In this document: positions 1 through 64,000 of the stretch, piece after piece
Layout of the letters: every line of letters starts with the position of its first letter
Position numbering within the stretch: the first letter of the stretch is position 1
Assembly: GCA_914767715.1 (NCBI GenBank)
Contig: OU612069.1
Coordinates: 5,394,001-5,458,000, forward strand
Source of the DNA: Membranipora membranacea
Lineage: Eukaryota > Bryozoa > Gymnolaemata > Cheilostomatida > Membraniporidae
Length of the DNA stretch: 64,000 nucleotides
Reading direction: 5' to 3'
Notes under the pieces: model-generated
The model's database searches: none
Seen by the model: the letters and a program-made list of their open reading frames with translations, nothing else
Told to the model about the DNA's origin: nothing
Made by a program: the position numbers and the translations under genes

Positions 1-506
1 CTTTGGCTGGGTCTGTATGAATACCATCCTGATTAACGATATGGCCCAAAAACTCAACTTCCTGTTTGAGTAAATGTGTCTTAGACACTTTGATTTTTAG
101 ATTGGCTTTTTGCAGCCGCTCTAACATGGTATCCAACCTGGTCAGATGTGTTTCTTCATCTGAACTGATTGCCATTGCAATCCTTGTAACACTTTCTCCA
201 TCAACCTTTCGAAGGTGGCTGGAGCACCACACAATCCCATACCGAGTACACGCCATGTATAGACTCCGCTTTTGGTGCAAAAAGCTACCATTTCCTTAGC
301 GTCAGGGCTTAAGGAGCACTGCCAATAACCAGATAAAAGGTCAAATGTGCTAAAAAGAGTTGAACCTCTCAGTGCCTCTAGTGAGTCGTCAATACGTGGT
401 AGGGGTTGTGATGGAATATAATTTGCTTTATTTAGCTTGCGGTAGTCCTGGACAAACCGACTGGTTCCATCTTTCTTAGCTATCAGTAGAACAGGAGCAC
501 TATAAA
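1..506 (-). pseudogene. reverse transcriptase segment lacking the YxDD box
   Basis: Translating the minus strand gives typical gypsy RT blocks: AKKDGTSRFVQDYRKLN, then STFDLLSGYWQ, which includes the first catalytic Asp, then GAPATFERLMEKVLQGLQWQ. The following block, EETHLTRLDTMLERLQ, and then VEFLGHIVNQDGIHTDP, lie in another frame. The stretch that should hold the Y-x-D-D active site is missing at about 160-172, where the two blocks are joined directly. A further frameshift near 506 separates this part from the upstream pol ORF. Without the two YxDD aspartates no polymerase activity is expected. Whether a sequencing collapse explains it cannot be judged from one copy. Confidence 0.8.
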
Positions 507-2354
507 TGGTGACACTGTACGTTCAATGATGCCCTTTTTCAATAGTTCATCTACATGCTTTTCTATTTCTAGGTTAGCATGATATCCTACTCTATATGGA
601 GGAAGCCTGATTGGTTGGGTGCCAGGTTTGAGCGTGATTTCATGAGGAACCAGATCACAATAACCCATGTCATATGCATCCTTGGAAAACACATCCTGAT
701 ATTTGACGAGGAGTTGTCTCATCTTTGACTTACTGTCAACTGAGATATATTCAGGTAAGGTGTCGAATAGGGGTTTGACATGGTCTGGCAAGACCGATTC
801 TGAGTCAATGGTGACATCACAATTCTGGATGGTTGTGCCATTCCAGTCTAGTACCTCAGGTTCATGTATGTCAATAATGTTTCCATCAGTGAGGAAAGCT
901 ATTGGGGTGTCTTGGGCAATGTGGATGGCTTCTGCGGTTATGTTGGCAACTCTGAGTACCAAACACTCTTTCACGTAGCATCTTGATGCAATTAGATTGT
1001 ACGAATCGACTACTCTGAAGTTTGGCTCTATGAGTCCTCCGCCTTCTATGGTGGTGTGAGCATACATAGGTATAACTCTTTCTGAGTAGGCCTCAATGGT
1101 CACTGACCGAGCTGAGTAGCATGCACACGCTAGCCTGTCACCACTACTGTTCACTAGAGGTATAGATTGCTGTAGCATTCTGAGGTTCATTTCACTGAGG
1201 TCCAGTACACATCCAAATGCCACCAGAAAATCCATGCCAATGAAACCATTTTCAGTAATGTCAGCCACCTCTATAAGTCCTAGCAAGTTTTCACTGCCCA
1301 ACTTGACATTCACCTCATGCTTGCCATAACAAGATATAGGACTGCCAGTTGCAGTTTTACCCTTCGGTTTTCCAGGTTCACACTGACCATCTAGGATACC
1401 TAGCTTGATAGCATGCACTTTACTCAATATGGAGGTGGTAGCACCCGTGTCAAGCAAAAACACAGTTTTGTACCCATTTACCTCCACCGGTACATAAGGT
1501 GAGTATAAATCTGATCGCCGTATTCTTCTTACATCGATTAATTGATCATCAGAAGGATATGATTGCTGATATGGTAATACTTCTAATAATAAGTTCAGAG
1601 TTGTCTCCTCTTTTTCAAGAGGTAAACCTGATGCATGTAAATCAATCTTATCTGGTATAACATAACCTGGAGATGGACCTGTGTTGCTAGACTCCAATTC
1701 AAATTCTGCTAGCTTAGATCCCATCTCACTAACCATAGCAATGGCCGGTTCAATGTTTACTTTGTCAGACTGAGCGTGCTGCTGAACTACTGGGTTATCC
1801 ATATCAGGATCCACTAATCGACTACTGGAAGAGTCGTTCATACTGGGTACATGAAATCTGGTGACCTTTGCAGGACCACTATAAGGCAAAGTGAGTACCT
1901 GTATTACTCTTTTAACAATATTATTAGATTTCAATGAGGTGACCTCAAACATATCAGTTTTTGTCACTTCGTAGCCTTTTTGATACAATAACTCTGTGGG
2001 AGGTAAATCAATCTTATCTGGTATAACATAACCTGGAGATGGACCTGTGTTACTAGACTCCAATTCTAATTCTGCTAGCTTAGATCCCATCTCACTAACC
2101 ATAGCAATGGCCGGTTCAATGTTTACCTTTTTAGACTGAGCTCTCTGCTGAGATACTGAAGTACCAAGACTGTGATCAACTAATCGAGTCTTTGAAGTAT
2201 CATGTATACTAGGAATACAGAACTGTGTAACCTTTGCTGGTTCACTATATGGCAAGGTGAGTACCTGTATAACTCTTCTAACAATGTTAGCAGGTTTCAG
2301 TGAGGTGACCTCAAACATATCAGTTTTTGTCACATCATAGCCATGTTGATACAA
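483..2354 (-). CDS. pol N-terminal part: retroviral-type aspartic protease and RT start
   Basis: This is a 623-residue open frame. Residues 1 to about 245 are a linker made of two near-identical copies of a 122-residue block. The protease follows, with the catalytic motif FLLDTGATTSIL at about residue 303 and a flap/second conserved region ending IGMDFLVAFGCVLDL. The tail HEITLKPGTQPIRLPPYR is the usual lead-in to gypsy RT, before the frame breaks at VSPF. The frame overlaps the gag stop in the -1 register and stays open upstream of the reported start, so expression as a gag-pol frameshift product is likely. The given start is therefore probably not a real initiation codon. Confidence 0.85.
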   Translation of the reverse strand: MYQHGYDVTKTDMFEVTSLKPANIVRRVIQVLTLPYSEPAKVTQFCIPSIHDTSKTRLVDHSLGTSVSQQRAQSKKVNIEPAIAMVSEMGSKLAELELESSNTGPSPGYVIPDKIDLPPTELLYQKGYEVTKTDMFEVTSLKSNNIVKRVIQVLTLPYSGPAKVTRFHVPSMNDSSSSRLVDPDMDNPVVQQHAQSDKVNIEPAIAMVSEMGSKLAEFELESSNTGPSPGYVIPDKIDLHASGLPLEKEETTLNLLLEVLPYQQSYPSDDQLIDVRRIRRSDLYSPYVPVEVNGYKTVFLLDTGATTSILSKVHAIKLGILDGQCEPGKPKGKTATGSPISCYGKHEVNVKLGSENLLGLIEVADITENGFIGMDFLVAFGCVLDLSEMNLRMLQQSIPLVNSSGDRLACACYSARSVTIEAYSERVIPMYAHTTIEGGGLIEPNFRVVDSYNLIASRCYVKECLVLRVANITAEAIHIAQDTPIAFLTDGNIIDIHEPEVLDWNGTTIQNCDVTIDSESVLPDHVKPLFDTLPEYISVDSKSKMRQLLVKYQDVFSKDAYDMGYCDLVPHEITLKPGTQPIRLPPYRVGYHANLEIEKHVDELLKKGIIERTVSPFIVLLFY

Positions 2355-2370
2355 TAATTCCTTTGTTGGC
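1639..2370 (-). repeat. 366-bp in-frame tandem duplication within pol
   Basis: Two adjacent copies with a 366-bp period (122 codons) encode the same block. It runs from LLYQ.GY.VTKTDMFEVTSL to NTGPSPGYVIPDKIDL. The copies differ by scattered substitutions, so the duplication is not an assembly stutter and the frame has been kept. It lies just upstream of the protease. Confidence 0.9.
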
Positions 2371-2407
2371 TTTTCAGACAGTTTATGTTTCTGAGTCCCA
2401 TTCCCTA

Positions 2408-3793
2408 TTACTGCCTGATTGATTGTCCGGGAATGGGCAACCCGTTTCCCTGGTGCTCACACTTGTTATCAAAGTGGGGGCCTCCACAGTGTCGACAAGG
2501 CTGACACACATATGGCATATGAGCCGCACCACAGTGTTTACACGGTCGTGTTATTCTTGGTTGAGTACCAGCGGTTGGGATAGAAGGTGATACATTCTTT
2601 TGCTCTATTGTAGACAGTGCCACAACTGGCGAGGATCTAGGAGGCTGAGATATTTTACTCTGATTACGCCTGAAGGGCGAGTCATGACCGTACCATACAT
2701 CATGGATGGCAGCTCTCTGTACGGCCTCTTCAAGAGTTTTCGGGCACTCCCGATTCAGCTCATATTTGATATGTACACTGGGCAAGGAGCGAATGAAATT
2801 ACTGATGGTAATTTTCTCCCTTGTAAATTTGTCACAGTCATGATAGACAACTTCTACCATCTTCCTTATGTCATTGGCTAGGTCGGAGATGGACTCATGC
2901 TGCCCCTTTTTCCGGCTATCTAGCAACACTGTATATTTTTGCACCAATAAATGGTTACCATATCTGTTCTCTAATTTTTCAAATACTGTCCTGGAATCTG
3001 AGACCTGCTCATAGAGGATACACTCTTTAGCAGCACCAGTTAGGCACTGTTTAAGCCATAGAGTGATGATCTTCTCATCCTCCCAGCCGTTTAGCTCCAC
3101 ACATTCAGCAAACAACAGTTTGAATACGGTGAGATCACCAGAACCATCAAACTTAGGCAAGTCGCCAAGTGGTTTACAAGCTCTGGCTCTTCTTGGCAGG
3201 TCAACAACTGGAATTTCACATGGCCGTCTCCTAGGAGCAGGCACAGGACGCTGACTTGTAGAACTAGGTGCAAGAGTCTGATAAACGGTGTCAGGCTCTC
3301 TATGTATAGGCGATGACTGATGCTGATGGTCAGCACTAGCTAACCCAAATACTATGGATGACAGGTCAGTCATCCGTCTATCCATGTATTCCTGTATTTC
3401 TTTTGTATGTGCCTTATTTCTTTCCATGGCCGCCATCATCTCGCCATGATTCCGCTCAATGGAAGCTGATAAATTGGCTGACAGGTCCGTCAAACTGACA
3501 GTAGTGGATTGTTCAAATAAGCGACCTGGCTGAGGGCGGGTATCGTTAGCTCCTTGCCTCTGCCCAGCAAGCTTATGACTAGGTATCTGAACCTGTTCAG
3601 TTCTTTCCATAGCTGAGGCAAGCCAAGCGGGCTGCGATCTTCTAGTAGTCTGAGTTCTTGGCCGTGCTGACTGGCCTTGAGCGACTGGTCGATCGGTATT
3701 TGATGCCATTGTTTGTTTGCTTTTAGATTTTGCTGAGTCCGCACCAACGATAACCTCCGTTCCTTTGTAATTATGCCCACCCGAGGACGCCAA
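2408..3793 (-). CDS. gag polyprotein with two CX2CX3HX4C zinc knuckles
   Basis: This is a 461-residue intact frame. The N-terminus is basic and Gln/Ser-rich. The central capsid-like part (about 210-370) contains LPKFDGSGDLTVFKLLFAEC and LKQCLTGAAKECIL, the usual retrotransposon gag fold signature. The C-terminus has two knuckles, CKHCGAAHMPYVC and CRHCGGPHFDNKC. Gag would package the element RNA. The knuckle spacing C-x2-C-x3-H-x4-C differs from the retroviral C-x2-C-x4-H-x4-C and is also seen in BEL/Pao elements, but the pol sequence points to Ty3/gypsy. It ends at a TAA that lies inside the pol frame (-1). Confidence 0.88.
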   Translation of the reverse strand: MASSGGHNYKGTEVIVGADSAKSKSKQTMASNTDRPVAQGQSARPRTQTTRRSQPAWLASAMERTEQVQIPSHKLAGQRQGANDTRPQPGRLFEQSTTVSLTDLSANLSASIERNHGEMMAAMERNKAHTKEIQEYMDRRMTDLSSIVFGLASADHQHQSSPIHREPDTVYQTLAPSSTSQRPVPAPRRRPCEIPVVDLPRRARACKPLGDLPKFDGSGDLTVFKLLFAECVELNGWEDEKIITLWLKQCLTGAAKECILYEQVSDSRTVFEKLENRYGNHLLVQKYTVLLDSRKKGQHESISDLANDIRKMVEVVYHDCDKFTREKITISNFIRSLPSVHIKYELNRECPKTLEEAVQRAAIHDVWYGHDSPFRRNQSKISQPPRSSPVVALSTIEQKNVSPSIPTAGTQPRITRPCKHCGAAHMPYVCQPCRHCGGPHFDNKCEHQGNGLPIPGQSIRQ

Positions 3794-3953
3794 TGGCTGT
3801 GGTACGGGAAATCTCGAAAGGGTGGAACACCTGGCCGTTACCGGGCTAGGGTTTGGTTCTCAGGCTAACGGTATCTAGCTAACCAAACTCACCATGAATG
3901 AGCCGAGAGAGGATAACTCCTGGGTAGAGAATTCCTGGATAGCTATCTTCAGC

Positions 3954-28132: not shown

Positions 28133-28226
28133 AACTAGCCGAGCTGCGCCACACATAAGTTGCCCCTAGCCGAGCTGCGCCATTCCCAATTTATTTTCCC
28201 ATGTGGCGCAGCTCGTCTGCCGTAGA
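28133..28226. repeat. small hairpin repeat, gagctgcgccac arms
   Basis: Two direct copies of tagccgagctgcgcca are followed by the inverted atgtggcgcagctcg. It lies immediately before the satellite array and is locally GC-rich in AT-rich DNA. Confidence 0.7.
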
Positions 28227-31200
28227 CACCCATATCATACTGTCAGAAGAAGTCTGGCTCACAAACTGCCTAAACTACACTGACGGCCACATCATAGGCT
28301 ACTGTCACAACTCAGGCCAACCTCACGTACTGCCTTAACCAAACTGACACCCATATCATACCGTCAGAAGAAGTCGGGCTCACAAACTGTCTAAACTATT
28401 CGGACACCGATACCATACGCTACTGTCAGAACTCAGGCTAATCTCACAAACAAACAAACTACACTGACGCCCATAGCATGAGCTACTCTCTGAACTCAGG
28501 CTAATCTCACAAACAGCCTAAACTACACTGACACCCATAGTATACCGTCAGAAGAAATCGGGATCACAAACTGCCTAAACTACACAGACACCCATATCAT
28601 ACCGTCAGAAGAAGTCGGGCTCAAAAACTGTCTAAACTATTCGGACACCAATACCATAGGCTACTCTCAGAACTCGGGCTAATCTCACAAACAAACAAAC
28701 TACACTGACGCCCATAGCATGAGCTACTCTCTGAACTCAGGCTAATCTCACAAACAGCCTAAAATACACTGACACCCATAGCATACCGTCAGAAGAAATC
28801 GGGATCACAAACTGCCTAAACTACACAGACACCCATATCATACCGTCAGAAGAAGTCGGGCTCAAAAATTGTCTAAACTATTCGGACACCAATACCATAC
28901 GCTACTCTCAGAACTCGGGCTAATCTCACAAACAAACAAACTACACTGACGCCCATAGCATGAGCTACTCTCTGAACTCAGGCTAATCTCACAAACAGCC
29001 TAAACTACACTGACGCCCATAGCATAAGCTACTGTCAGAATTCAGGCTAATCTCACAAACAGCCTAAATTACACTGACACACATAGCATGAGCTACTGTC
29101 AAAACTCAGGCTTATCTCACAAACAAACAAACTGCACTGACGCCCATAGCATGAGCTACTGTCAGTACTCAGGCTAATCTCACAAACATCCTAAACTACA
29201 CTGACGCCCATATCATACTGTCAGAACTCAGGCATATCTCACGAACAGCCTAAACTATCCGGACACCCATATCATACCGTCAGAAGAAGTCGGACTCACA
29301 GACTGTCTAAACTTTTCGGACACCAATACCATACGCTACTCTCAGAACTCAGGCTAATCTCTCAAACAAACAAACTACACTGACGCCCATAGCATGAGCT
29401 ACTGTCAGAACTCAGACTTATCTCACAAACAGCCTAAACTACACTGACGATCATGGCATAAGCTACTTTCAGAACTCAGGCTACTCTCACAAACAGCCTA
29501 AACTACACTGACGCCCATAGCATGAGCTACTGTCAGAACTCAGGCTAATCTCACAAACAGCCTAAACTACACTGACGCCCATGTCATACCGTGAGAAGAA
29601 GTCTGGCTCACAAACTGCTTAAACTACACGGACACCAATACCATACGCTACTGTCAGAACTCAGGCTAACCTCACGCACTGCCTTAACCACACTCACACC
29701 CATATCATACTGTCAGAAGAAGTCTGGCTCACAAACTGCCTAAACTATACTCTCAGAACTCAGGCTAATCTCACAAACAAAGAAACTACACTGACGCCCA
29801 TAGCATGAGCTACGGTCAGAACTCTGGCTAATCTCACAAACAGTCTAAACTATCCGGACACCCATATCATACCGTCAGAAGATGTTTGTCTCACAAACTG
29901 CGTAAAGTACACGGACACCAATACCATAAGCTACTGTCAGAACTCGGGCTAACCTCACGCACTGTCACACTGACACCCATATCATACTGTCAGAGGAAGT
30001 CTGGCTCACAAACAGCCTAAACTACACTGACGCCCATATCATAGGCTACTGTCAGAACTCAGGCCAACCTCACGTACTGCCTTAACCAAACTGACACCCA
30101 TATCATACCGTCAAAAGAATTCGGGATCACAAACTGTCTAAACTATTCGGACACCAATACCATACGCTACTCTCAGAACTCAGGCTAATCTCACGAACAA
30201 TCAAACTACACTGACGCCCATAGCATGAGCTACTGTCAGAACTCAGGCTATTCTCACTAATAGCCTAAACTACACTGACACCCATAGCATAAGCTATTAT
30301 CAGAACTCGGGCTCATCTCACAAACAGCCTAAGCTACAATGACACCCATAGCATAGGCTACTGTCAGAACCCAGGCTCATGCTAATCTACACGGACGCCC
30401 ATATCATACAGTCAGAAGAAGTCGGGCTCACAAACTGCGTAAACTATGCAGACAATACCATACGCTACTGTCAGAAGAAATCGGGATCACAAATAGCCTA
30501 AACTACACTGACGCTCATGGCATTAGCTACTGTCAGAACTCAGGCTACTCTCACAAACAGCCTAAACTACACTGACGCCCATAGCATGAGCTACTGTCAG
30601 AACTCAGGCTAATCTCACAAACAGCCTAAACTCTCCGGACACCCATATCATACCGTCAGAAGATGTTTGGCTCACAAACTGCGTAAACTACACGGACACC
30701 ACATCATAGGCTACTGTCAGAACTCAGGCCAACCTCACATACTGCCTTAACCAAACTGACACCCATATCATACCGTCAGAAGAAGTCAGGCTCACAAACT
30801 GTCTAAACTATTCGGACACCAATACCATACGCTACTGTCAGAACTCAGGCTTATCTCACAAATAGCCTGAACTACACTGACGCCCATCGCATGAGCTACT
30901 GTCAGAACTCAGGCATAACTCACGAACAGCCTAAACTACCCGGACACCCATATCATACCGTCCGAAGATGTTTGGCTCACAAACCGCGTAAAGTACACGG
31001 ACACCAATACCATAAGCTACTGTCAGAACTCAGGCTAACCTCACGCACTGCCTTAACTACACTGACACCCATATCATACTGTCAGAAGAAGTCTGGCTCA
31101 CAAACTGCCTAAACTACACTGACGCCCATATCATAGGCTACTGTCAGAACTCAGGCTAACCTCACGCACTGCCTTAACTACACTGACACCCATATCATAC

Positions 31201-32640
31201 TGTCAGAAGAAGTCTGGCTCACAAACTGCCTAAACTACACTGACGCCCATATCATAGGCTACTGTCAGAACTCAGGCCAACCTCACGTACTGCCTTAACC
31301 AAACTGACACCCATATCATACCGTCAGAAGAATTCGGGATCACAAACTGCCTAAACTACACGAACACCCATATCATACTGTCAGAAGAAGTCGGGCTCAC
31401 AAACTGTCTAAACTTTTCGGACACCAATACCATACGCTACTCTCAGAACTCAGGCTAATCTCACAAACAAACTACACTGACGCCCATAGCATGAGCTACT
31501 GTCAGAACTCAGGCTAATCTCACAAACAGCCTAAACTATACTGACGCCCATAGCATAAGCTACTGTCAGAACTCAGGCTAATCTCACAAACAGCCTAAAC
31601 TACACTGACGCCCATAGCATAAGCTACTGTCAGAACTCAGGCTCATCTCACAAACAGCCTAACTACACTGACGCCCATAGCAAGAGCGACTGTCAGAACT
31701 CAGTCTCATCTCACAAACAGCCTAACTACACTGACGCCCATAGCAAGAGCGACTGTCAGAACTCAGGCTAATCTCACAAACAGCCTAAACTACACTGACG
31801 CCCATAGCATAAGCTACTGTCAGAACTCAGGCTAATCTCACAAAAAGCCTAAACTACACTGACACCCATAGCATAAGCTACTGTCAGAACTCAGGCTCAT
31901 CTCACAAACAGCCTAACTATACTGACGCCCATAGCAAGAGCGACTGTCAGAACTCAGTCTCATCTCACAAACAGCCTAACTACACTGACGCCCATAGCAA
32001 GAGCGACTGTCAGAACTCAGTCTCATCTCACAAACAGCCTAAACTACACTGACGCCCATAGCATAAGCTACTGTCAGAACTCAGGCTAATCTCACAAACA
32101 GCCTAAACTACACTGACACCCATAGCATAAGCTACTGTCAGAACTCAGGCTCATCTCACAAACAGCCTAACTACACTGACGCCCATAGCAAGAGCGACTG
32201 TCAGAACTCAGTCTCATCTCACAAACAGCCTAACTACACTGACGCCCATAGCAAGAGCGACTGTCAGAACTCAGGCTAATCTCACAAACAGCCTAAACTA
32301 CACTGACACCCATATCATACCGTCAGAAGAAGTCGGGCTCACTAACTGTCTAAACTATACGGACACCAATACCATACGCTACTCTCAGAACTCAGGCTAA
32401 TCTCACAAACAAACAAACTACACTAACGCCCATAGCATGAGCTTCTGGCAGAACTCACGCTAATCTCACAAACAGCTTAAACTACACTGACGCCCATAGC
32501 ATAAGCTACTGTCAGAACTCAAGCTCATCTCACAAACAGCCTAAACTGCACTGACGCCTATAGCATGAGCTATACCGTCAGAACTCAGGCTTATCTCATA
32601 CACTGCTTTAACAACACTGACCCCCATATCATAAGGTGAG
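28226..32640 (+). repeat. 64-bp satellite array of about 4.4 kb
   Basis: Roughly 69 units with consensus gcctaaactacactgacgcc, catagcataagctactgtca, gaactcaggctaatctcaca, aaca. A second subfamily reads catatcataccgtcagaaga, agtcgggctcacaaactg. The left two thirds alternate subfamilies. The right third (about 31480-32280) is a more homogeneous higher-order array with catagcaagagcgactgtca units. Open frames inside it are incidental. Confidence 0.97.
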
Positions 32641-50012: not shown

Positions 50013-50282
50013 ACAATACAAACTTAAACGAATTTACTAAAAATACACAGGCCTCACATGTTTATTCATTCACATACAATGCAAGCTTGAACCTCCTAAT
50101 GTAAGCTGCATATGATAATAAGTGACATTGTGTCGGGGTTATAAAAATACAATACCCTAGAACCACACTGGTATTTGGGTTTGCAAGAAGGAAAAACCTA
50201 CCAATTTTTGGAAAAGGTCCTTCAAATCTGATCTTAATCGCATATAATTCTTTTGCGTAATGGAACACAGCAGGTAAATTTG

Positions 50283-50965
50283 TAGGCGAAAAAGTACTCT
50301 GATAAGGTTAATATATAATAGCTAAATTAAGGGGGTCGCACCAACCACACTCCCTCGCTCAGCCTCCTGTTAAGCTGAAAATATTTAGGCGAAAAAATAC
50401 ACTAATAAGGTAAATATATAATAGGCAAAATTAGAGGGTCGCACCCGCCGCACTCATGCGCTCAGCCTTCTGAGAGGTTGAAAATATTTAAGTGAAAATT
50501 TCGTTAATAGGTAAAAATACAATAGCCAAAATTAAAGGGTCGCACCAACCACACTTGTGCGCTCAGCCTTCTGAGAGGTTTAAAAATATTTAGGCGAAAA
50601 AATACACTAAGGTTAATATATAATAGCCAAAATTAAAGGGTTGCACCAACCGCACTCTTGCGCTCAGCCTTCTGAGAAGTTGAAAATAGTTAAGTGAAAT
50701 AATACCCTAATGTAAATATATATATTAGGCAAATTTAGAGGGTCGCACCAACCGCACTCTTGCGCTCAGCCTTCTGAGAGGTTGAAAATATTTGGGCAAA
50801 AACATACACTAAGGTTAATATATAATAGGCAAATTTAGAGGGTTGCACAAACAGCACTCATGCGCTCAGCCTTCTGAGAGGTTAATATATAATAGCCTAA
50901 ATTAAAGGGTTGCACTACCACACCCCTGCGCTCAGCGTTCCAAACATTGTGGCCGAAAATTGATC
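50283..50965 (+). repeat. left inverted terminal array of the giant transposon (100-bp units)
   Basis: About six to seven units with core gggtcgcaccaaccgcactc, ttgcgctcagccttctgaga, ggttgaaaatatttaggcga, aaaaatacactaaggttaat, atataatagcc. It is the same repeat as 62866-64000 in reverse orientation. The outermost unit is a variant (tcgctcagcctcctgttaag), and the same variant is outermost on the right. Confidence 0.92.
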
Positions 50966-53099
50966 TCAGGCAAATATGGATATCAGCCGTAAAGCTGTGT
51001 CCAGCAATGAAATAGATTTTTGTCAATAGGCTGCCAATGCTAGCAGAAATATGGCCAGGCAGGGTGGCGATTTAAGTTCATTATTATTTTTGGGCTTTAT
51101 TCTAGAAGTTAAACTTGTTGCATCATCATCTTAATGCACCACTATTTTACTGTCCCTGAAATTCATTCACTCCAACCATAATCACAGTTATCAACGGTTA
51201 GTGTTCCCAGAATTACTTCCAATCCTTTCTTCTTCTCATTACAATTATGTTATATTACTATAAGAAGTAACGGTAGTTCTGGTAACTGTCTCTATAAAAT
51301 GTGAGAGTATGGAGGAGTTTATCTCGTGGCAGCAAAGGTGAGGGATAGGTATTAAAAATCAGATCACTAGGCCGACAGTGAGCTGTCATAGTAATAAACG
51401 TTTATCAGATTTGATCATAAGCTTTATATTCATGTATTTATGTATTTATCTATGAAAGAACGCTCTTGTTATGTGAAGTTCAAAGGTATCTTCTTCTCTT
51501 CTTCGCATCATTCTAAAAGTAAAAGAACAATTATCCATATCCTATCTTCTCTTTTCATAAATCAACTAGCCCACGTTAACAGGCGTTCATGTCAAATGTC
51601 AAGTTGTTTGGACAACGTTATAGGTCGTTAAAGTGATTACAACGTTCAGCATTTTCTAAAACAGGTGTTTTGGTATGCAAGAAGGAAAGACCTTCCAATG
51701 AAGATTAATAACTAAGCCAAAGCCATGTTAAGCTAACCCAAAATCACAAAGCGATAGCCTTCAAAATCATGCTGCTGATCGGGGCATGTCACGAACCCTA
51801 AACACATGATAGAAACTTGTCATATAGAGGTCACGTTTTGTGGTTTTCTCCTTCCATCGTCTGGGTATGGCCTAGGTTCAAAAGCTTTGAATGGATAGTT
51901 GATGTCATGGAACTGAAGCTATCAGCCATCCTTATATGCTAGAGATTTTCCATATAATTATGGCCAACTATCTCACAATATCTCACTTAGTGCTATGTCC
52001 ACAATGATTTTAAACTCAAACCGCATTGCATTGGTGCTTCCGAAAGTAGACAACTCTATCTCGAACACTTGACCTGCTTATTAGTTGCTTCAATAAACAA
52101 TGTCAAGTTCAAACTGTTGATTGGCAATCCCCTTGCTTTAATGATTGCGGTTTTTCACGTGAAAGGTCACATAAATCATCAATATTTATCTCATAACATA
52201 TCGCACAATCCTGGCTGTTTCATCACATATTTCTAGCGGCCCTTGGCTATAGGATGTTCCTGCACATTGCAAATCTATGTACAATTGCGAATAGCCATAC
52301 AGTGAATCGGATCAGGGGATTTGAGAGAAAGAAGACTTACTCCAATCTGGCTCCTTCTCACTCGTAGTTAATATCTTGCTCCTACGATAAATTAGAGTGA
52401 TAAGTGATAATGACGATCAATGCCTCAGTAGAAGTAAATGTCCAGCTGTTCTCCCATATTTTAAAAATTTGCGTATTGAACAAGGTCAATCTCATTCACA
52501 AATAATATGGGGCAACTCTTGGAACCTTTGTTAATTCGACACAGAGTAAAGGCCAATGAGAATTCAAGCAAACTTTCAATCTAGTACGATGATACAGGTC
52601 TATTTTAGACTCACAATGTGTACTTGCCGAAATCAAACGGCTGGTCGGAATGCAAGAAAGGTAAAACACAGTTATTTAGAGACAGAATTTTAAGTTACGC
52701 AGGATTCTATCGAATATTTGTTATGTACCTGAGGATTTGGGTGTGTCATTAGTGTCATGGGATTTTACTAACATCGCAGGTAACTCACAACAGCACGGAG
52801 TTTAGACTAACGAATCTCAACCATGCACGGTGAAACGGGAGTGAACAATCTGAACTGTGATAGAGAGTCAACGTAAAGTGAAAGCGACAGTAAGCAAAAT
52901 CAGCAAAATAAGTAGCAAGATCAACAGTAGAATTAATTTAAGCTGATATATCCACTCTCTAGCACCTGTTCTAATCATAAAAATTCTCAGCATTTGGGCA
53001 CGGTGCCCACCAGCTGAACTGCACCACCCCTAAAAGGTCAAATCCCCTATAAGGCGCGTACTTTTTCTCCGCTAGATTACGGTAAAAATGATAGAATAT
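50966..53099. other. element interior, no clear gene
   Basis: No confident exon. A diverged copy of the repeat in 53105-54700 lies at about 51660-51810 (gcaagaaggaaagacctt, aaccctaaacacatgatag). A minus-strand exon-like piece at 52341-52381 (between ctac and acttac) has stops in the frame used by its relatives. Confidence 0.45.
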
Positions 53100-53104
53100 A
53101 TAGT

Positions 53105-54700
53105 AGTAGTAGGACTAACAGGATAAGTAGTCAGATACATACCACGATTTGCTTCACAAACTCCGCCGTATATTTCCTTTTCTTCGGATCTATCACCATG
53201 AGCTCCTACATAACAATCATAACATTCCTCGCTATTAAGTATCTGGCCTGGTCTTCAGATTTGTGTGATGACCCTTATGACTAGATTTGATCAATCTCCA
53301 AATAATGTACATATGCTAATAAGTTGACATACCGACAGTCAGGTCTTATCTACACTGAGTCAGAAGATGCAAATCATGCTAGAAGGAAAAACCCACCAAT
53401 CAGGATTATTTACGACTAAGCCAGAGCCACATTGAGCTAACCAAAAATCATTTACCGATAGATTTCAAAATTGCACTGCCGGGAGGGGGGGGGGGGTATG
53501 TCGCAAACCCTAAACACATGATAGGGACCGGAAATAATGTAGATGAAGTATGGTGGGCTTCACCCTCCATCATACCGGCCTGCAATTTTACCATGCAAAC
53601 ATCAATTCAATTGTCATCTTACTACAAACCTATGTTACCACAGGTTAATTAGGTTTTAGTTTTACATTCTACAACCGTTTGTTCGCATTATTTGAGCAAC
53701 ATTAATTCAATATATGATGCATTTTGGCCTACAATTATACTCAAAGCTAACCCTCTACACTGTAACTTCATATTATCCACACTGACTGTAAACGAACATT
53801 GTTTGATCAAAGCTTTAATCAGGAGTTATCCAGAGATAAACCAGGTTATCCCTTTATAGACAAGTTTAATGGTAGTCAGATACATACCTTGATTTCGTTT
53901 AATGACACTGTTCGATCCATCATCATCAGCTCCTAAAAGACAGTGTCCAATGTAACAATGGCAAAAGAAACTTATATTGTATCTGTATGTAATTGTTGTC
54001 TTCTCTTGCGCTGATGACACAGTGTCATGAGAAGACAACTAATGATTGATTGATGGTACCTCCAAATAACTTTGCCCAGAAAGCCTCTTCCTTATAAAGC
54101 AGTACGTAGATTTACGGCTATCCCTGTAGTATAAACACGTAGCCAGTTTGGGAGATATGATTGAATGTGGGTGCATTAAGGCTAATTGCCCTCAGAATTT
54201 TAATCAGGTTTTATAAGATTATCGTTTTACAAGATTATCCTTTTACAGACAAGTGAAGTTTATAGTAGTCAGAGACATACCACGATTCGCTTCACCAACT
54301 CCATCAGATGTTTCATTCTCTTCGAATCTATCACCATGAGCTCCTACATAACAATCATAACATTCCTCGCTATTAAGTATCTGGCCTGGTCGTCAGATTT
54401 GTGTGATGACCCTTATGACTAGATTTTATCAATCTCCAAATAACGTACATATGCTAATAAGCTGACATACCGACATCCAGGTCTTATCTAGACTGAGTCA
54501 GAAGATGCAAATCATGCTAGAAGGAAAAACCCACAAATCAGGATTATTTACGACTAAGCCAGAGCCACATTGAGCTAACCCAAAATAATTTACCGATAGA
54601 CTTCAAAATTACACAGCTGGGAGGGGGGGGGGGTATGTCGCAAAGCCTAAACACATGATAGGGACCTGTAATAACGTAGATCAATACCGGCCTACAATTT
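53105..54700 (-). repeat. 1.14-kb tandem duplication with exon-like units on the minus strand
   Basis: Positions 53105-53560 and 54243-54690 match closely, offset 1138 bp. Each holds a minus-strand unit flanked by tag and gtatgt. The unit at 53150-53205 codes GAHGDRSEEKEIYGGVCEAN; that at 54288-54343 codes GAHGDRFEENETSDGVGEAN. A third, shorter one at about 53890-53935 codes GADDDGSNSVIKRNQ. All start G|GA and end in phase 1. This looks like a tandemly copied small exon of an unknown minus-strand gene. Confidence 0.55.
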
Positions 54701-57075
54701 TATCATGTGCACATTATTTTAATTCTCATCTTTCTACAAACCTATGCTACCACATCTTGATTTGGTTATAATTTTACATTCTATAACCGTTTTTTTGCAT
54801 TATTTGAGTCACACTAATTCAATATATTATGATGCATTTGGGCCTACAAGTACACTCAAAGCAAGCCTTGTACGGTGTTACATGATACCACATAGCTGCC
54901 TGTAAAATCCATGAGAATTGTATGATGAGATCTGGAAATTTTCATTTTAATATGCTAGCAGTGTTGTTTCTTTTGAGATATGTTGCGCTGCTACACAGAA
55001 TGTGTGTTTTACTGATACAGTTTTGGTTGATATAGGTTCAAGGCTTAGATCACGGTCTCCTTTACATTCTTCCTGAAACTACCGGTAGCTCACCACTGAT
55101 CACTTACACAGAGTCATAACTGCTTTATATTATTTCTTGTGGGATCAGGTCTAATTTCAATACAGTCTAAAGGCAATTGCTCGTATTCGAAACAGACACA
55201 ATCCGATCCAGGGTCCAAACTTATACCCTTTTTTAACTGGGTTACTTGGGACACAGCTTATTTGGGTAAACGCCTGTAAACAGCCCCTGTGTTTCAGCGG
55301 AAACATGACAATGTTATGCACATTGAAAAATGTGCATAACCATAGTTTGAACAGTGCCGCAGCCTTGGCGAAGGCCCCTGTACATGATGAGACCAAAGAG
55401 AAACTGAACAAGCTATAGTGGTCTCACCGCGGTGAAGGCGAAAAACAACATATGTGGGGATATATGTGAGCCCGAGAAGCCAGCTAACAGGTCACTTTGT
55501 CCTGACTATCACTTCGTCAAAAGGTTGGTATTACATGAAGTTCTTTAGAGTAGGGTGTCTGTCATTACTTGCTCTGAAACATACTATTATGCTTTCCAAG
55601 AGCTAGCCAAACATTTATGCCATCTGAATTTTGTTGTACAAAATTATGTTTTCTAATTATTTGTCAACATTTTTGCCATTAATTTTAGTTTGTTGGGAAT
55701 GGGGAAAATATGTTTTTGTGGACTCAAACAAATTTTGTCTATAATGGCATGCCACAAAGATCTGAGATTTGAATGTATAGGCTACTACCCTGGTTTAACA
55801 AAACTGCAGTTAGTAACCAGTGATTTCGTTCATGTTGGTCTATACGCAATAAGGAACGTTCTAGTTGTCTTCCCTTGGAAGCTGTTATACTTAGCAGTAT
55901 GAATTTACAATCATTGTAGAAATAACACTCTCTATGCGATATTTTGAGACAATGAGCTGTTATTCTACTATGCCACCCTTTACACATATTTTTACTTATG
56001 GAAGAAAAACCCTCCAAATTTGCATGATTTACTTGCTTACTTGATTGCAAGCAAATGTTTTAGGTTGGTGAACGCCTCTTCAGCAGCATGATTATGAAAA
56101 TTATATAGGGTTCAGTATTAGACCGAGCCTAAATTGCACGTTGAACTCATATTTTTACTCCCGTTGGTGGATTTTGTTCATTCTTCCATTTTTGACTTGG
56201 CTGCACTTCACAACAGATCAAATATTTATATTATCTTGGACTGTCTAACTGTAGAATCCTTGCGTCTTTTGTCTGTTTTTTTTGCAGGGGGTTTGGTATC
56301 TGTTGTTTCTGTACCAATTCCTGATATGTTAATATCACATACATATTTGTCATCTTAGAAGTTGAAGGAAATATCAGGAAAACAAATATGGCGAAAGACA
56401 CCAGACTGGATCCAGCGCTGATTCTGCTGTGTCCAGGCAACTAGGCAAGATGGAAGATGTAAGACACTCCTCTGTTGTGACTGGTAATGGACATGCCGTA
56501 TGCACATTTGTAACCCAGTACAACATAAGATGTCACTCTCTGAGGTGGGTTCATGTTTTTTTTCTCCGCATCAACTAGAAATGAACAACTTTAAACAACT
56601 TGAACAATGCATTCTGTTTTAAGCCCTAGGTGATCATTTACAAATACATAATGGTTATACATGTACATAAATCGCTATGTTAGTTATGTCATCCATGACT
56701 AATACCGCGACGCTCTTTGCTTTTCGCCATTGACCCCAAAGACCACGTCTAACATTATTTTTGTCCAACCAAATGTTTTTCCTATGAAAACATAATAAAT
56801 TTAGATCTTGAACAATAACTGGTTTTAGATAATGGGCTAGTTGGATGGGTGGACTCGTATTGCTTGTTCATAACCTATAAGTCCATTCAGACATCCTTCA
56901 GGATTGACAAAGAAATTGTTCCCACTGTGGTATTGTATGGATCATCAGCGTAACAAGTGCATACCTCACTACTGCGAGACATAGTAGCCATTGCCATGCA
57001 GATCTAGGCTCAGAATTTGTGCATGAATAAAATGAAAAATAATAAGTTATACTTTTTATATATAATTTCATTTAG
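54701..57075. other. element interior, possible 5' part of the transposase gene
   Basis: Mostly non-coding. A plus-strand stretch at 56368-56458 (KYQENKYGERHQTGSSADSA, VSRQLGKMED before gtaaga) looks exon-like and could belong to the transposase N-terminus, but its phase does not match the next exon. Upstream exons for a DNA-binding zinc finger were not found. Confidence 0.35.
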
Positions 57076-59784
57076 CGGTGCCGGCAAGATGGTATTCATG
57101 AACGCCACGGATGGACTGGACAATGATGGCACGAAATTGTTCCTCCTTGCAACTATCACTGTTGGAGAAATGGTACCTTTTGGTAAGTAGCACGCACACA
57201 TACGGTGATGAAGTCACTATCCTGTCATTCCCGTCACTGTTCTTTGTTATGCTCTGCTGCCAAGTTTTCCCAAATATCTTATTCATAATCGATAATCCAA
57301 GTCATGCTCTACCTCCACCCTAATTTGCTTTTTCGATGTTACATGCATAAAATGTGTATCTTTATTATAAGGTGACCACTTTCAGATCGAAGGCAAATTG
57401 CTTTAGCGAAGATTAATCATGGAAGTGTAGCAAAGTTTTTTGTCATCTGTAAACACAATTAATTCATTGCAATTCTCACAGGTGCCTTTGTGACAACATC
57501 AGAGTCAGAGGAGGCAATAGCATCTGGACTTTCACCGTTGAAAGACCTGTTAGGCAGTCAAGGATTTGGAGGTATGTGTAGTTGAAATTATCATTTACAC
57601 TGCTATGCGAAATTTACTAATTGCCACCAGCTTCATTCAAACAGTGGCAGTTGCAGTCACACTGGAACTTTTATTACCTACTTTTAATTTGTCCCTCGCA
57701 TGTGTTTTGGTAGTTAGTGACATACCCTCCCACCCAGGCAACAAGTAAAGCCCCACTGATGAAGAGTATGAAAAAACCAAATAATTTTAAAAGTCATGCT
57801 GCTGATGGGTCTCTTCACTAAACCCAAAACAGATGTACGAAACTTGTGTTAATAATGGTAGGTTTCGCCTGTCATCCTCACTGCAGGGGAAGCCATCTGA
57901 AGTGTCTTAAAAAATATAGAAACCATCTGGTTTGATCCTAGGGCATATATGTCAATCTTTTCTAGAGTAATGCTGGTAAACGTGGTATAACCTCTAGGTC
58001 ACTGGAACACATCACATAGAAAATGAAAACAATAATGATTTGCTATTTTTGGGGTCGATTTGAGTGGTAATTTCAAATGATGAGGTCGCTAATCTGGTCT
58101 TTGAGTCTGCGTCATGCCTGTGCCTCTCAAATCAAGCTCACTTAGCCTAACCTAGCCTGAAGGATCGAACCCTCTTGCTCTGCTAATAAAAATATGCAAA
58201 AGTAGCCTCCGCTGGAGCGGTAAGGGCAACTCAAACTGTTGCAAATGACTTTTAGCCAAGAGAAGGCCTGTTAGTGCAGGCTGAGTTTACCGTTATAGCA
58301 TGAAGAGTTATATTATTATGAGTGGGCCATTATTGATAACGATGGCTTGTAAAACAATCTATATATGTCTCAGCCACTTGGTATTAAAGCAAATGTTGGC
58401 ATACCAGACTTGCCATAATACATGGAAACAATCGTTTGAAGCTTCAATGCAACAGGCAGGGAGTTGTGTCACCTTCAGCTGGGCAATTAAAACGGACACA
58501 ATGCTTTCCACTTGTAGTTTTGGTAACTAGCTTTATAATACAATGTCATAATAAAACCCATCATACGTGTCAGTTCATCTGCCACACCCAACTTCCAAAA
58601 TCATATTGATTTATCTACATGTTAATTGAAGGTTGCGGTTCTCCTGAACATTTCATGGTAGATGACTGTAAGGCCGAGCACAATGCCATACGAAAGGTTT
58701 CTGGAAATGATGTAAGCGTGCTCCTTTGTACGTTCCATGTAGTCAAGTCCTTTACCGCTTGGGTAAATGCACATCTGGAAGATAGTGAACGTGAGGCATG
58801 AACCAACTCATTAATAGGTTTGGTCTACTGTACCTCTGAGAGGAAGTTCAATTTACGATAGGTTCACCCTTCCAAACCATAAATCCTTTCAGTAAATATG
58901 GTAAAGTCAGCAACACGTGTCAGCAAGGGTTTCTATTACTAATTGCTTGTTGCTATGAAAACCTAGGGAGCTGTTAGTCATGCCGCACTTTTTTGGTGAA
59001 ACTGGTAAGATTGTTCAATGATTTGACCGAGGACTGTAGTCTTTGATGTGATGGAGCTGTTGCACCACTTTTCACAAGCATATTTACCCATTCAACTTAG
59101 AGTTGTTCTCTTTATGATCAACTTTGAGTGTAAATTTAGCATACTTCGGAAGAATAACAACCTTTTATTGATAACTCCTATGCTCAGGATATGTCAATTG
59201 TTTCCTATACATAGGGTAGAGGCTATTGCCCAAAACAATGAGAGGGTTTATGAATACATATCTGAATACTATCTGAACAGATGACAGATGTGGGCTCACT
59301 ATACAAGAAACCAAAGCTCAATTCTCGGTATGCTGACTTCTGCAGATTCCCGATCTTACTATCAGGGTTATATTATGATCATAAGTGAGACAACTCAAAG
59401 CGTTTTGTTGATATATTGTGTAGACTTTAATGATTTTAGTAAACGGGCAAACAGTGACAGGGGTACATTAAGCGATGGCTTTGTTATCATATACTTGTAC
59501 TCCTAGTATGGGTTGAGTCGCTGATAATTTGATTATGTAACACTAGTTTGACATTGTTGATCAACTACATGTATCCAAAATCACGTTGCTCCCCTTTCTT
59601 AGAGGGTAACACCAACAACAGAATTGAGAGACAGTCTAAGGTCATAAAAGAAAATGTCTTCACCAGGGAGCGAGCCTACAATGTAACTGAAACTGTTCAG
59701 TTCATTGTAAGCTCTTATGATAAGTTGAGCAAAGATAAGCTGCTGGAGGTTGCCAATGGCAGAAGAAGACAAAGCAAGACCGAT
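57076..59784 (+). CDS. MULE (Mutator-like) transposase, spliced, with an in-frame TGA
   Basis: Five exon pieces: 57076-57182, 57482-57571, 58632-58790, about 59215-59327, and 59603-59784. The first three chain in phase 1; the last two chain in phase 1 with each other. They give the MULE catalytic order: VFMNATDGLDNDGTKLFLLA (first Asp region), FVTTSESEEAIASGLSPLKD, HFMVDDCKAEHNAIRKV (second Asp) with LLCTFHVVKSFTAW (CxxH), MWAHYTRNQSSIL, and EGNTNNRIERQSKVIKENVF, RERAYNV, KLLEVANGRR (NNxxE region). A TGA at 59282 interrupts the fourth piece two codons before MWAHY. The transposase would cut and join the element ends. N-terminal exons and a SWIM zinc finger were not found, so this copy may be decaying. 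Confidence 0.72.
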
Positions 59785-62401
59785 GTAAATTTAACTATTT
59801 TGTCGAAAAGCACCTATTTGGTATTTGCCATCTGAGCAGGTTTTATTTGTAAAGAAAAAAGGTTAAGCATTAGCAATGTTGCTAAATTTACCCTCTACTT
59901 GGTTTTAAATTTTGTGCAGGGTAGGGGTATTATCTGAAAGTCTTCGTAACCACCTATGCGTTTATAAACTTAAGATAACATTTCACATAAACGTAAAATA
60001 ACTCAATAATAATAATGGCTGTCCGCTGTAATCTGGCAATAACTGCATAACCTATATATAATGACGGTGCTGTATTGTCCACTCAACAGCTTATATGCAT
60101 GTTTAGCTATTTTTGATGAAGTCAACATAGGCTGAAAAACTCAATATTTATAAAGGATACTGGAAACAGTCCTTTGCATCGATGATGTATGAAATCAGTC
60201 ACCTAAGTAATTGTAATGGTGTGGAAATCTACGAAGCAAATGTCACACCAGGGCTGTAGCTTAGAACTTTAGTTTGTGACGGCTATGGGCAAGCAACTCA
60301 CTCAAAGGTGCATAGCGTGAGAGGTAACAGGAAAGTTACGTGCCATGAATGAGATATGGTACCCCCTGAGCTCAAAAATCCATTTTTTGGCCCACTTCAT
60401 TCTGGACGTAGGGACAGCAGTGCTGTCCTTTGAACTATGGCCTGCACACCACAAGCTATATTTAAACCAAATTAAATCTCCAAATCGTCTATTGTGATTC
60501 ATCAGATCCAGCTTGTCCTCACGCCGAATCCAACAACGTTTCATTGATTGATAGATATATATACTTTAAGTATATTTTCTTGTCTCAGAATGTTTTGATG
60601 TTGGACCTGTCTTGTGGCTGCAAAATGTATGAATGACATTGCATACTTTTCTATGACAGCAACCTATTCAATGATGGTGAATAGGATGATTATGTTTGGG
60701 TCACTACCATATTGCTGCTTGGACTGCGTCTATCTGCTACTTAAAACAATAATCAAATATATAGCAATCAATTGACATATGTGACATCGCGTACATTTAT
60801 TTTAGGGGTTGGATGTGAAGGAGAAGGAGGAGTTGTTTGTGGTTGCCACCGGTGGATAATGATTATGACACCATGAAAGATGGATGACAATGTGAGATTC
60901 GTGGGATAAGCAAATGATGAGAACATTGTCCATTTGTTCATTCCAAGATGTATTGGACTGTGAATAGTGAGGTTTCAAAGGGTGCAATCAATATTTCAGC
61001 AACCAACAACATCCTCAATGAAACAAATCACCTGTGATGCTGACATGGTGCTGTATGTGTTTCTTAGCAAATAGTTCTCTGGTATTTGCAGGTAAAGCAC
61101 CAAGAACTGGATGGTGTCTGCCGCTCCAAACAGATACTGCCAATGACTCCAGTTCACTGCCAGCGAGTGAGCCATCCACCTCAAAGACCCAGAAAATCAG
61201 TGGGACCGCCCAGGCATCAGAATATCACAGATCACATGAAATCCCAGCTACAATCTTACCTCTGATCTCGGAAACGTAAAACCGTAGTTTTGGATATGTA
61301 TTTGGTTACGCTCACATTATGTTTTGAATCTCTTCACAATGGCTCAATGACATGCCATTTTGCCATGCTGAGCTGACTGAACGTCTATGTTATATTCTAT
61401 TATAAGAGGGCAATGGTTTAAAAAAGACCAAAGTGTACCAAGGAGCAAAAGATTAACATTAAGTTGTTGATGTTGCCTATTTAACTGGATGTGGAGCAAA
61501 TTTCTGTTTCAAGACTATTTTATCTGGAATAGGATATGGTGCGGCTCTAGCTTGCCCAGGCTAGTGTGGCCCCAGCTATTAGTTGACGCATACTGTAATG
61601 ATTATTTTAGAGTTATCGATAAGTTCATTGCTGATCTACAAGCTCCACAATTGATAGAGGTTGGCCACAAGTTCATGGCAGCGTGGCAGAAGGCATCTGA
61701 AGCAAAGCAGATAGATATGCTTTATTCAGCAATAAATTTGCAAACTGCAAAGAGGTGGGCTATTATGAGAGACTTTACAAACTTGACAAACTGACATCAG
61801 ATTGTGTTATCATGCGTCCAAATTTGAACCATAAACAAAAGCATGGATATAGATATAGATATGTATATATAGGTTACATCCTTCCACTCTGTTCAACATC
61901 AACAACTTTGTTAACATGTATTGAATTTTGAAAGTTGTCTTATTATGTGATTGTGTGTGATTAAATAGTTCAGTGCTAATTTGGAAGAGTTGTCTTCCGT
62001 TTGTGGAGCACACTATCTAAAAAATCTCACCTTTGCAAAGGCCAAAGGTCAGTTTATTATTATTAATATTATCGTGTTGGTCAACCCTTTATCACAGTGG
62101 CAACATTGGTAGGTATAAATGGTCCTGGGCCTTAGCAAAAGGCCAAAGGATATCATTTTTGGTCATCAAGACTGAAGAAGTTTCCTTAATATGTGGGCAG
62201 CTCCGATTTCTGTATCGTCTCATAAGTAGTTCAGACACCAATAACTATTGGTATAACTTTGGTTCTTACATTCAACAGTCCTCCTATCTCAAATCTTTGT
62301 TTTTTTTGCACTCCTCCATTTTCTCTTCTTCCTTTTTTATCACTCTCATGTCTCCAGGTTTAGCAATGCCTATGATTTGACATTTGTTGGTGGCCTTATT
62401 C
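59785..62401. other. element interior after the transposase, exon-like pieces not joined
   Basis: Stretches such as 61090-61270 (after ttgcag; APRTGWCLPLQTDTANDSSS) and 61489-61794 (CNDYFRVIDKFIADLQAPQL, FMAAWQKASEAKQIDML) are open and protein-like and could be transposase C-terminus or a second element gene. Phases and motifs do not allow a call. Confidence 0.35.
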
Positions 62402-62466
62402 ACTATTATTATTATTATTATTATTATTACTATTATTATAACTATTATTATTATTATGACTACTAT
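62402..62466. repeat. (ATT)n microsatellite
   Basis: About twenty imperfect ATT/ACT units, inside the element, about 400 bp before the right terminal array. Confidence 0.92.
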
Positions 62467-62865
62467 TACTATTGCTGTGTTATCAATATGATTTCTCTTC
62501 CAGAAGAAAAATTATAAAGAGAACGAAGAGGAAGAGATATACTCTTGGACTATGAAAGCTATAAATGCATATATAATATCGTATAGGTGATTTGGCTCTA
62601 TGTAATTGTATCTTACTCTCTGTCGTCATACATGTTTTTTGTCAGATTGACGGAGTTCACATGCAAACATTTTGTTGCTTTTGTCATCAATACCTAAATC
62701 ATAACATCATTTTTTTGACATCCTGCTAAAAACAGTTGCTGTATCTCCTTGTATTGCTCAAAGATCCTTTTTGCAAAAAAAAAACCTATGATGTTCATTC
62801 ATCATTGATCATTTTATCTGATTTCCAACTTCTCAGAAGGTAGTTTAAGTGCTCAAACTGATTGC

Positions 62866-64000
62866 TGTGTTGTTAGGGTGCGACCCTCTAATTTAGACTA
62901 TTATATATTAACCTTAGTGTATTTTTTCGCCTGAATATTTTCAACTTCTCAGAAAGCTGAGCGCAAGAGTGCGGTTGGTGGGACCCTCTAAATTTGGCTA
63001 TTATATATTAACCTTAGTGTATTTTTTCACTTCAATATTTTCAACTTCTCAGAAAGCTGAGCGCAAGAGTGCGGTTGGTGGGACCCTCTAAATTTGGCTA
63101 TTATATATTAACCTTAGTGTATTTTTTCACTTCAATATTTTCAACTTCTCAGAAGGCTGAGCGCAAGAGTGCGGTTGGTGCGACTCTCTAAATTTGCCTA
63201 TTATATGTTTACCTTAGTGTATTTTTTAGCCTAAATGTTTTCAACTTCTCAGAAGGCTGAGCGCAAGAGTGCGGTTGCTGCGACCCTCTAATCTTGGCTA
63301 TTATATATTAACCTTAGTGTATTTTTTTCACATAAATATTTTCAACTTCTCAGAAGGCTGAGCGCAAGAGTGCGGTTGGTGCGACCCTCTAAATTTGGTT
63401 ATTATATATAAACCTTAGTGTATTTTTTCGCCTAATTAATTTCAACCTCTCAGAAGGCTGAGCGCAAAAGTGCGGTTGGAGCGACCCTCTAATTTTGGCT
63501 ATTATATATTAAACTTAATGTATTTGTTCACTTAAATATTTTCAACCTCTCAGATGGCTGAGCGCAAGAGTGCGGTTGGTGCGACCCTCTAAATTTGGCT
63601 ATTTTATATTAACCTTAGTGTATTTTTTAGCCTAATTATTTTCAACCTCTCAGAAGGCTGAGCGCAAGAGTGCAGTTGGTGCGACCCTCTAATTTTGGCT
63701 ATTATATATTAACCTTTGTGTATTTTTTCGCCTAAATATTTTCAACCTCTCAGAAGGCTGAGGGCATGAGTGCGGTTGGTGCGGCCCTCTAAATTTGCCT
63801 ATTATATATTTACCTTAGTGTATTTTTTTGCTTAAATAGTTTCAACCTCTCAGAAGGCTGAGCGCAAGAGTGCGGTTGGTGCGACCCTCTAATTTTGCAT
63901 ATTATATATTTACCTTATTAGTGTACTTTTTCGCCTAAATATTTTCAGCTTAACAGGAGGCTGAGCGGGGGAGTGCGGTTGGTGCGACCCTCTAATTTTG
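62866..64000 (-). repeat. right inverted terminal array of the giant transposon (100-bp units)
   Basis: About eleven units with exact 100-bp spacing where checked (63001 and 63101). Core ttatatattaaccttagtgt, attttttcgcctaaatattt, tcaacctctcagaaggctga, gcgcaagagtgcggttggtg, cgaccctctaatttt. It is the reverse complement of the left array. The last complete unit carries the variant cagcttaacaggaggctgag, which is the inverse of the outermost left unit. The array continues past the window edge. Confidence 0.93.

Follow-up and report, generated by a model that had tools for sequence, protein, structure and literature searches.

A probable gene-bearing relic of a MULE-superfamily transposon family with foldback-type ends in the bryozoan Membranipora membranacea

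In a stretch of 64,000 nucleotides from the bryozoan Membranipora membranacea (C5:5394001-5458000, contig OU612069.1 of assembly GCA_914767715.1; hereafter the window, whose own numbering is used unless a contig is named), we identified a 14.3-kb element that is very probably the relic of a gene-bearing member of a family of cut-and-paste DNA transposons with foldback-type ends, within the Mutator-like element (MULE) superfamily. It spans positions 50183 to C5:5458480 (64480 in window numbering), the right end being located from 2.5 kb read beyond the window. For the family, we observed a common terminus, target duplications of 9-10 bp, deletion derivatives, an array-less form of 364 bp, and a gene-bearing copy flanked by a duplication. 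An earlier note, made from the window alone, had proposed a foldback-structured element around a MULE transposase, and the termini, the duplications of the family, and the second gene-bearing copy, on contig C8, bear this out.

The ends of the element are long and inverted, and combine a terminal domain with tandem repeats in variable number, the structure expected of a foldback element. Two arrays of one 100-bp unit are present, the left one at 50276-50940 on the minus strand (~6.5 units) and the right one at 62877-64000 on the plus strand, with at least 11 units within the window and a continuation to 64260. Tandem Repeats Finder gave a period of 101 at 50276-50890 and of 100 at 62877-64000. 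The arrays are mutually inverted (for example, 93% identity between 50324-50498 and 63825-63999), and 12 window matches with three mismatches or fewer were found for a 33-base core of the unit, as against 0 in 100 shuffles, all of which confirms the inverted arrays described in the earlier note. Between the outermost left unit and the outermost unit of the right array in the window, identity is 96%; against the 10 other right units compared it is 80-84%. Outer-type units continue just beyond the window end.

Both true termini lie outside the arrays, in a terminal domain of ~225 nt that opens with GCAAGAAGGAAAAACCTACC, according to an alignment of 24 ends. On the right, the array ends at ~64260, 260 bp beyond the window, and is followed by the non-repetitive terminal domain to 64480. 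On the left, the terminal (flanking) domain of the terminal inverted repeat (TIR) occupies 50183-50275 on the plus strand and opens in the same way, with its inner part missing; the first array anchor of this arm lies 151 nt from the terminus, compared with 279-286 nt in 11 of 20 arms measured across the genome. The left terminus at 50183 and the right terminus (64480-64384) are 84% identical over 98 columns. Position 50283, previously read as the left boundary, is the edge of the array and not a terminus, and the mirror end anticipated on the right was found, about 480 bp beyond the window instead of ~200.

Genome searches covered an assembly of 339,339,785 bases in 18 contigs. The terminal domain gave 43 matches (40 of 42 candidates scored; two are pieces of one end, and some are partial), so that the further copies with the same ends sought by the earlier note do exist. 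A 300-base array piece had 170 genome matches, and an exact 30-base piece of the unit had no match in viral and prokaryote contig collections. The set of 20 arms used for array layout omits L034 (left), L041 (both), L049 (left), and the far C8 end, L011. The first array anchor was placed 284-286 nt from the terminus in nine of these arms, and in five others, beyond the 11 already mentioned, the first recognised anchor stood at 381-389 nt, resembling an unrecognised first unit. The number of units in an arm ranges from 1 to at least 26, and one member is array-less. The array unit can be aligned with the inner edge of the terminal domain (1 of 500 mononucleotide shuffles was equally good), and so can the outer-type unit (5 of 500). 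As this edge resembles the unit, the array is probably derived from a duplicated inner edge of the terminal domain.

Among the members of unusual form, the array-less one (L061, C9:14224839-14225203) is 364 bp long and consists of two terminal domains only, with a perfect 10-bp duplication, AGCTGTGAAC. Four ~2.1-kb copies at C10:8.85-8.93 Mb (L032-L035) have common left flanks, and no right terminal domain was recognised in them; they resemble block duplications of a single truncated insertion. In L045 and L046, at C11:6246-6259 kb, arrays stand head to head within the copy, a rearranged foldback form.

MULE target duplications are about 8-11 bp long. Nine of the 12 copies with both termini carry a target duplication of 9-10 bp with at most one mismatch. 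It is perfect in the C3 14.8-kb copy (9/9) and in the C8 10.0-kb copy, L039, L040, L044, and the C9 364-bp copy (10/10 each), and matches at 9/10 in L036, L041, and the C8 71.5-kb copy. L040 and L041 have the same flanks and probably go back to a single insertion that was duplicated; if they are taken as one, the tally is 8 of 11. Two copies, C7:18930470-18935357 (9/10, a G run) and C3:11009831-11012871 (6/10 by eye, a G or C run), are uninformative and were not counted as positive. Outside the count of 12 stand L032-L035, with an unrecognised right terminus, L045/L046, L047, L048, L049, and L060, with fewer than two true termini recognised within the sequence read, and other single termini. 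As a control in an 8-copy set, 54 left/right pairings of different insertions all matched at 5/10 or less. The target duplications indicate that the family transposed with a 9-10 bp stagger, and cited passages of PMC5225508 and PMC4079207 give 8-10 bp for MULEs.

These observations also bear on the idea that the arrays are an ordinary dispersed satellite that by chance flanks a MULE gene, to which we assign a probability close to nil. The unit is indeed dispersed, as the 170 genome matches attest, but in more than half of the arms the first anchor is set 279-286 nt in from a conserved terminus, and the mirrored outer units, the termini, and the duplications, together with this anchor spacing, rule out a dispersed satellite beside an unrelated gene.

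The gene is tied to the ends by a second copy. A genome protein search with the transposase gave 11 matches, all within two loci (19 of 19 candidates scored), namely, the window copy and a copy on C8 with termini at 19661146 and 19732655, enlarged by insertions to 71.5 kb. Its flanks, ATATTGGGCC and ATATCGGGCC, form a 10-bp duplication with 9/10 matching. The C8 copy is collinear with window 54880-59213, 59219-62248, and 62292-64256, and has a left arm equivalent to window 50276-51921 at its far end; the comparison leaves out about 49 kb (C8:19690500-19730458, 40 kb; 19666001-19670499). Across the transposase-bearing region (54880-62248, plus strand), collinearity is ~95%, and the C8 copy is split there by a PIF/Harbinger insertion (DDE_Tnp_4 E 2e-33) with TAA at both junctions, by eye. 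Because the collinearity of the C8 copy runs across the gene as far as the right end, and a duplication flanks this copy, we consider that the gene belongs with the ends.

Derivatives of the family keep the regions on either side of the gene. The left inner region (50941-54906), which has no recognised gene, is 88-95% identical to the duplication-flanked C3 14.8-kb copy, is partly present in 10 other fetched copies, and holds an internal duplication (53126-53792 and 54264-54906). The C3 copy has the left arm up to 54.9 kb; in its middle, the transposase gene has no match and a retroelement is present (reverse transcriptase, E 9e-18). The right inner region (60640-62827) is mostly kept in L044 and partly in L047, and adjoins the right array in the C8 71.5-kb copy. 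L044 joins window 51645 to 60781 and L047 joins 51559 to 60642, and from their sequences both seem to have arisen by internal deletion from an element organised like the window copy. Separately, the left inner region contains terminus-like motifs at 51677, 53378, and 54516 on the plus strand, with 2-3 mismatches in 20; their counterparts are retained in the C3, L041, L049, and L011 copies, and they are possibly old nested relatives.

The gene could instead be a passenger, a separate MULE transposon that landed in an array-ended element, one mobilised by a different enzyme, with both gene copies descending from that event. The gene is present at two loci against 43 terminal-domain matches, the C3 14.8-kb copy lacks it, and a reference title listed by PMC4079207 terms Drosophila FB-NOF non-autonomous, all of which would suit such an origin. 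We regard it as quite improbable, since the 9-10 bp duplications suit a MULE enzyme, L044 and L047 keep sequence that starts at 60.6-60.8 kb, beside the gene, and the other mobile frames seen are of nested kinds only (reverse transcriptase and PIF/Harbinger), in a scan that covered the C3 middle and part of C8; nested termini within 54.9-60.6 kb were not specifically searched.

Five exon-like segments within 57076-59781, all on the plus strand, read as a MULE transposase. The first (57076-57182) and second (57482-57571) have AG and GT boundaries, and the first, from alignment to protein P0002, would contain the first DDE position, here Asn. The third (58631-58795), with the putative second catalytic Asp and CTFHV, reaches E 0.0049 alone with Pfam MULE, below the cut-off, and E 6e-6 with a profile of relatives. 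The fourth (59213-59353) would encode the helical part; its reading frame is nearly identical in P0001, a fragment with 92% identity over 21% of the joined-exon query, and it carries a TGA at 59282. The fifth (59602-59781) has NTNNRIE with the predicted catalytic Glu. The profile was made from 28 proteins related to P0002, itself placed by Pfam in the ZSWIM1/3 RNase-H-like and MULE families and equipped with a helical domain and a C-terminal SWIM zinc finger; among 478 element frames the profile matched 58610-58798 (E 6e-6) and 59533-59832 (E 0.0013). In the alignment to P0002, the second Asp, CTFHV, and NTNNRIE are retained, and the first catalytic Asp is replaced by Asn (FMNATDGLD). The four motif strings that the earlier note had placed between the arrays are present, and two of the regions are backed by the profile. 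The window copy does not have an intact D-D-E triad, with Asn at the first Asp and the TGA within another exon. Judged by the profile of relatives, the predicted protein is a MULE-type DDE transposase, which we would place at the level of the MULE superfamily and no finer.

Several other features were considered in the coding region. An N-terminal FLYWCH domain, the zinc finger that marks the Phantom subclass of MULEs, was suspected by eye and is without Pfam support, there being no Pfam match in one upstream frame each of the window and C8 copies, where the position of the N-terminus is not fixed. Pfam ZSWIM models did not match the joined exons, and a SWIM zinc finger appeared in a single non-significant frame (E 0.13). 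The 41 proteins gathered with a profile whose first row is P0002 place, for that reason, P0002 and not the protein of the element. In a further frame at 61600-61791 (plus strand), which has no Pfam match, 60 compared residues are identical between the gene-bearing copies, as against 84-91% or so for the transposase segments. A conserved second open reading frame was considered here; with two substitutions, both synonymous, in 64 codons, selection cannot be claimed.

Both transposase genes are broken and without sign of constraint. The C8 copy has a broken frame in one transposase exon, and over the five exon segments the two copies differ by 23.5 nonsynonymous and 4.5 synonymous changes (pN 0.045, pS 0.031), as expected of genes that no longer yield a useful protein. 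In this assembly the family seems to lack any working transposase.

Several points count against interpreting the element as a MULE-superfamily relic. The joined exons match Pfam MULE at E 0.0018, below the curated cut-off, so that the profile test proposed in the earlier note gave a hit at that level, backed by the profile of relatives; the nearest distant homologue, P0002, was found only at a non-significant E of 0.12. The exons are predicted, and neither the complete coding sequence, with its true N- and C-termini, nor the splicing pattern is established. Collinearity with the C8 copy is not shown for window 51921-54880. The outer-type unit is at the outermost counted position in only 10 of the 20 arms (11 counting the second position), eight arms have none, one arm has no countable unit, and L050 also has one further in, which makes unit polarity a tendency and not a rule. 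Transposition activity is neither shown nor showable here. Finally, the window copy has no target duplication: its flanks match at 5/10, equal to the best mismatched pair, and its insertion as a single unit therefore cannot be claimed.

The window copy may be recombinant, or its flank may have been altered later. That it is a chimera, with ends from different insertions brought together by recombination or later rearrangement, has in our estimate a little less than an even chance, and would be compatible with the reading of the family given above. The missing duplication, the mere 84% likeness of the two ends, the loss of the inner part of the left terminal domain, and the resemblance between the 16-nt stretches outside the left terminus and outside the terminus-like motif at 51677 (repeat D9) favor it, whereas the order of left arm, middle, and right arm matches the parts read of the C8 copy, L044, and L047. 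The earlier note had proposed to look for a target duplication at the window copy and had named its absence beforehand as grounds for rejection; duplications were found elsewhere in the family, and we keep the foldback-MULE reading on account of these other copies and the second gene-bearing copy.

FB/NOF elements of Drosophila have inverted ends of tandem repeats and an associated coding segment. The bryozoan element has both, which is a likeness of structure; a kinship to FB/NOF itself, as put forward in the earlier note, is possible. A closer parallel in layout is Tetris of Drosophila virilis, for which the relevant sections of PMC4079207 describe a TIR with a flanking domain, a variable array, an inner domain, and a variable middle, and an array unit that shares a short stretch with the flanking domain, from whose duplicated edge the array is proposed to stem. 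The Tetris unit is ~220 bp, as opposed to 100 bp here, its target site duplication (TSD) is 8-10 bp, and no transposase-bearing copy was found in that study, whereas we found two gene-bearing relics; the two are likened by structure only. Tm1, a Mutator/Foldback element of Meloidogyne, resembles our family, according to the passages cited from PMC3169594, in its composite TIRs with variable repeat number, a MULE transposase in a rare copy, non-autonomous derivatives, 9-bp TSDs, and general decay. It differs in its ~14 bp unit, asymmetric terminal motifs, and a Phantom-type transposase with an incomplete FLYWCH, a domain that we did not find in the bryozoan element. Muta1 of Aedes aegypti, termed a type-2 foldback element in PMC5225508, likewise combines, in the portion cited, a MULE transposase with subterminal tandem repeats, an 8-9 bp TSD, and many derivatives with truncated TIRs, but it is 3.2 kb long, has a 12-bp repeat, and is active in yeast, whereas the bryozoan element is 14.3 kb long, has 100-bp units, and is broken. 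As foldback elements have been reported from the sea urchin (cited by PMC4079207, in the section used here) and, with Tm1, from nematodes (PMC3169594, same passages), far from Drosophila, the distant host is no surprise in itself. What is distinctive here is the 14.3-kb size, the 100-bp unit, and a transposase in which FLYWCH was not detected.

Most foldback elements are thought to be Mutator-like, as stated in the same part of PMC4079207, and a mechanism can be proposed for the bryozoan family. A MULE transposase would have recognised the terminal domain, cut the element, and rejoined its ends with a stagger of 9-10 bp. The units of the arrays would be duplicates of the inner edge of the terminal domain, expanded by unequal exchange or slippage, and the arrays probably served as extra transposase-binding sites. 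For Galileo, a foldback-like element with a P-type transposase, binding sites inside long TIRs have been demonstrated, according to the passages cited from PMC3688188. The source copies and their genes would have decayed afterwards, and because of this decay the family seems immobile in this assembly.

We can also speculate that the family's own transposase is of a ZSWIM1/3-like MULE lineage and not of the Phantom or NOF kind, which would imply an independent origin of foldback ends within animal MULEs. The array-less form, the arrays grown from the domain edge, and the gene-bearing members would then be preserved steps in the evolution of such ends. This whole proposal is doubtful and we rate it low, because its link is the E 0.12 match and because Phantom and NOF lay outside the comparison.

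Elsewhere in the window, the long frames at 483-3859 (minus strand), which are cut by the window start, are probably an LTR retrotransposon; one of them contains an aspartyl protease of retroelement type (PF13975, E 1e-8). A 4.4-kb satellite-like array with a unit of ~64 bp and a strong GC skew occupies 28225-32635.

From a biological perspective, some foldback families, Tetris among them, are known only without their enzyme, and what moved them is judged from the length of the duplication. Here, a transposase relic lies inside a duplication-flanked member, and the derivatives record gene loss and array variation. The role of the repeats in foldback ends thereby becomes testable, by comparing binding to the terminal domain with binding to the array unit.

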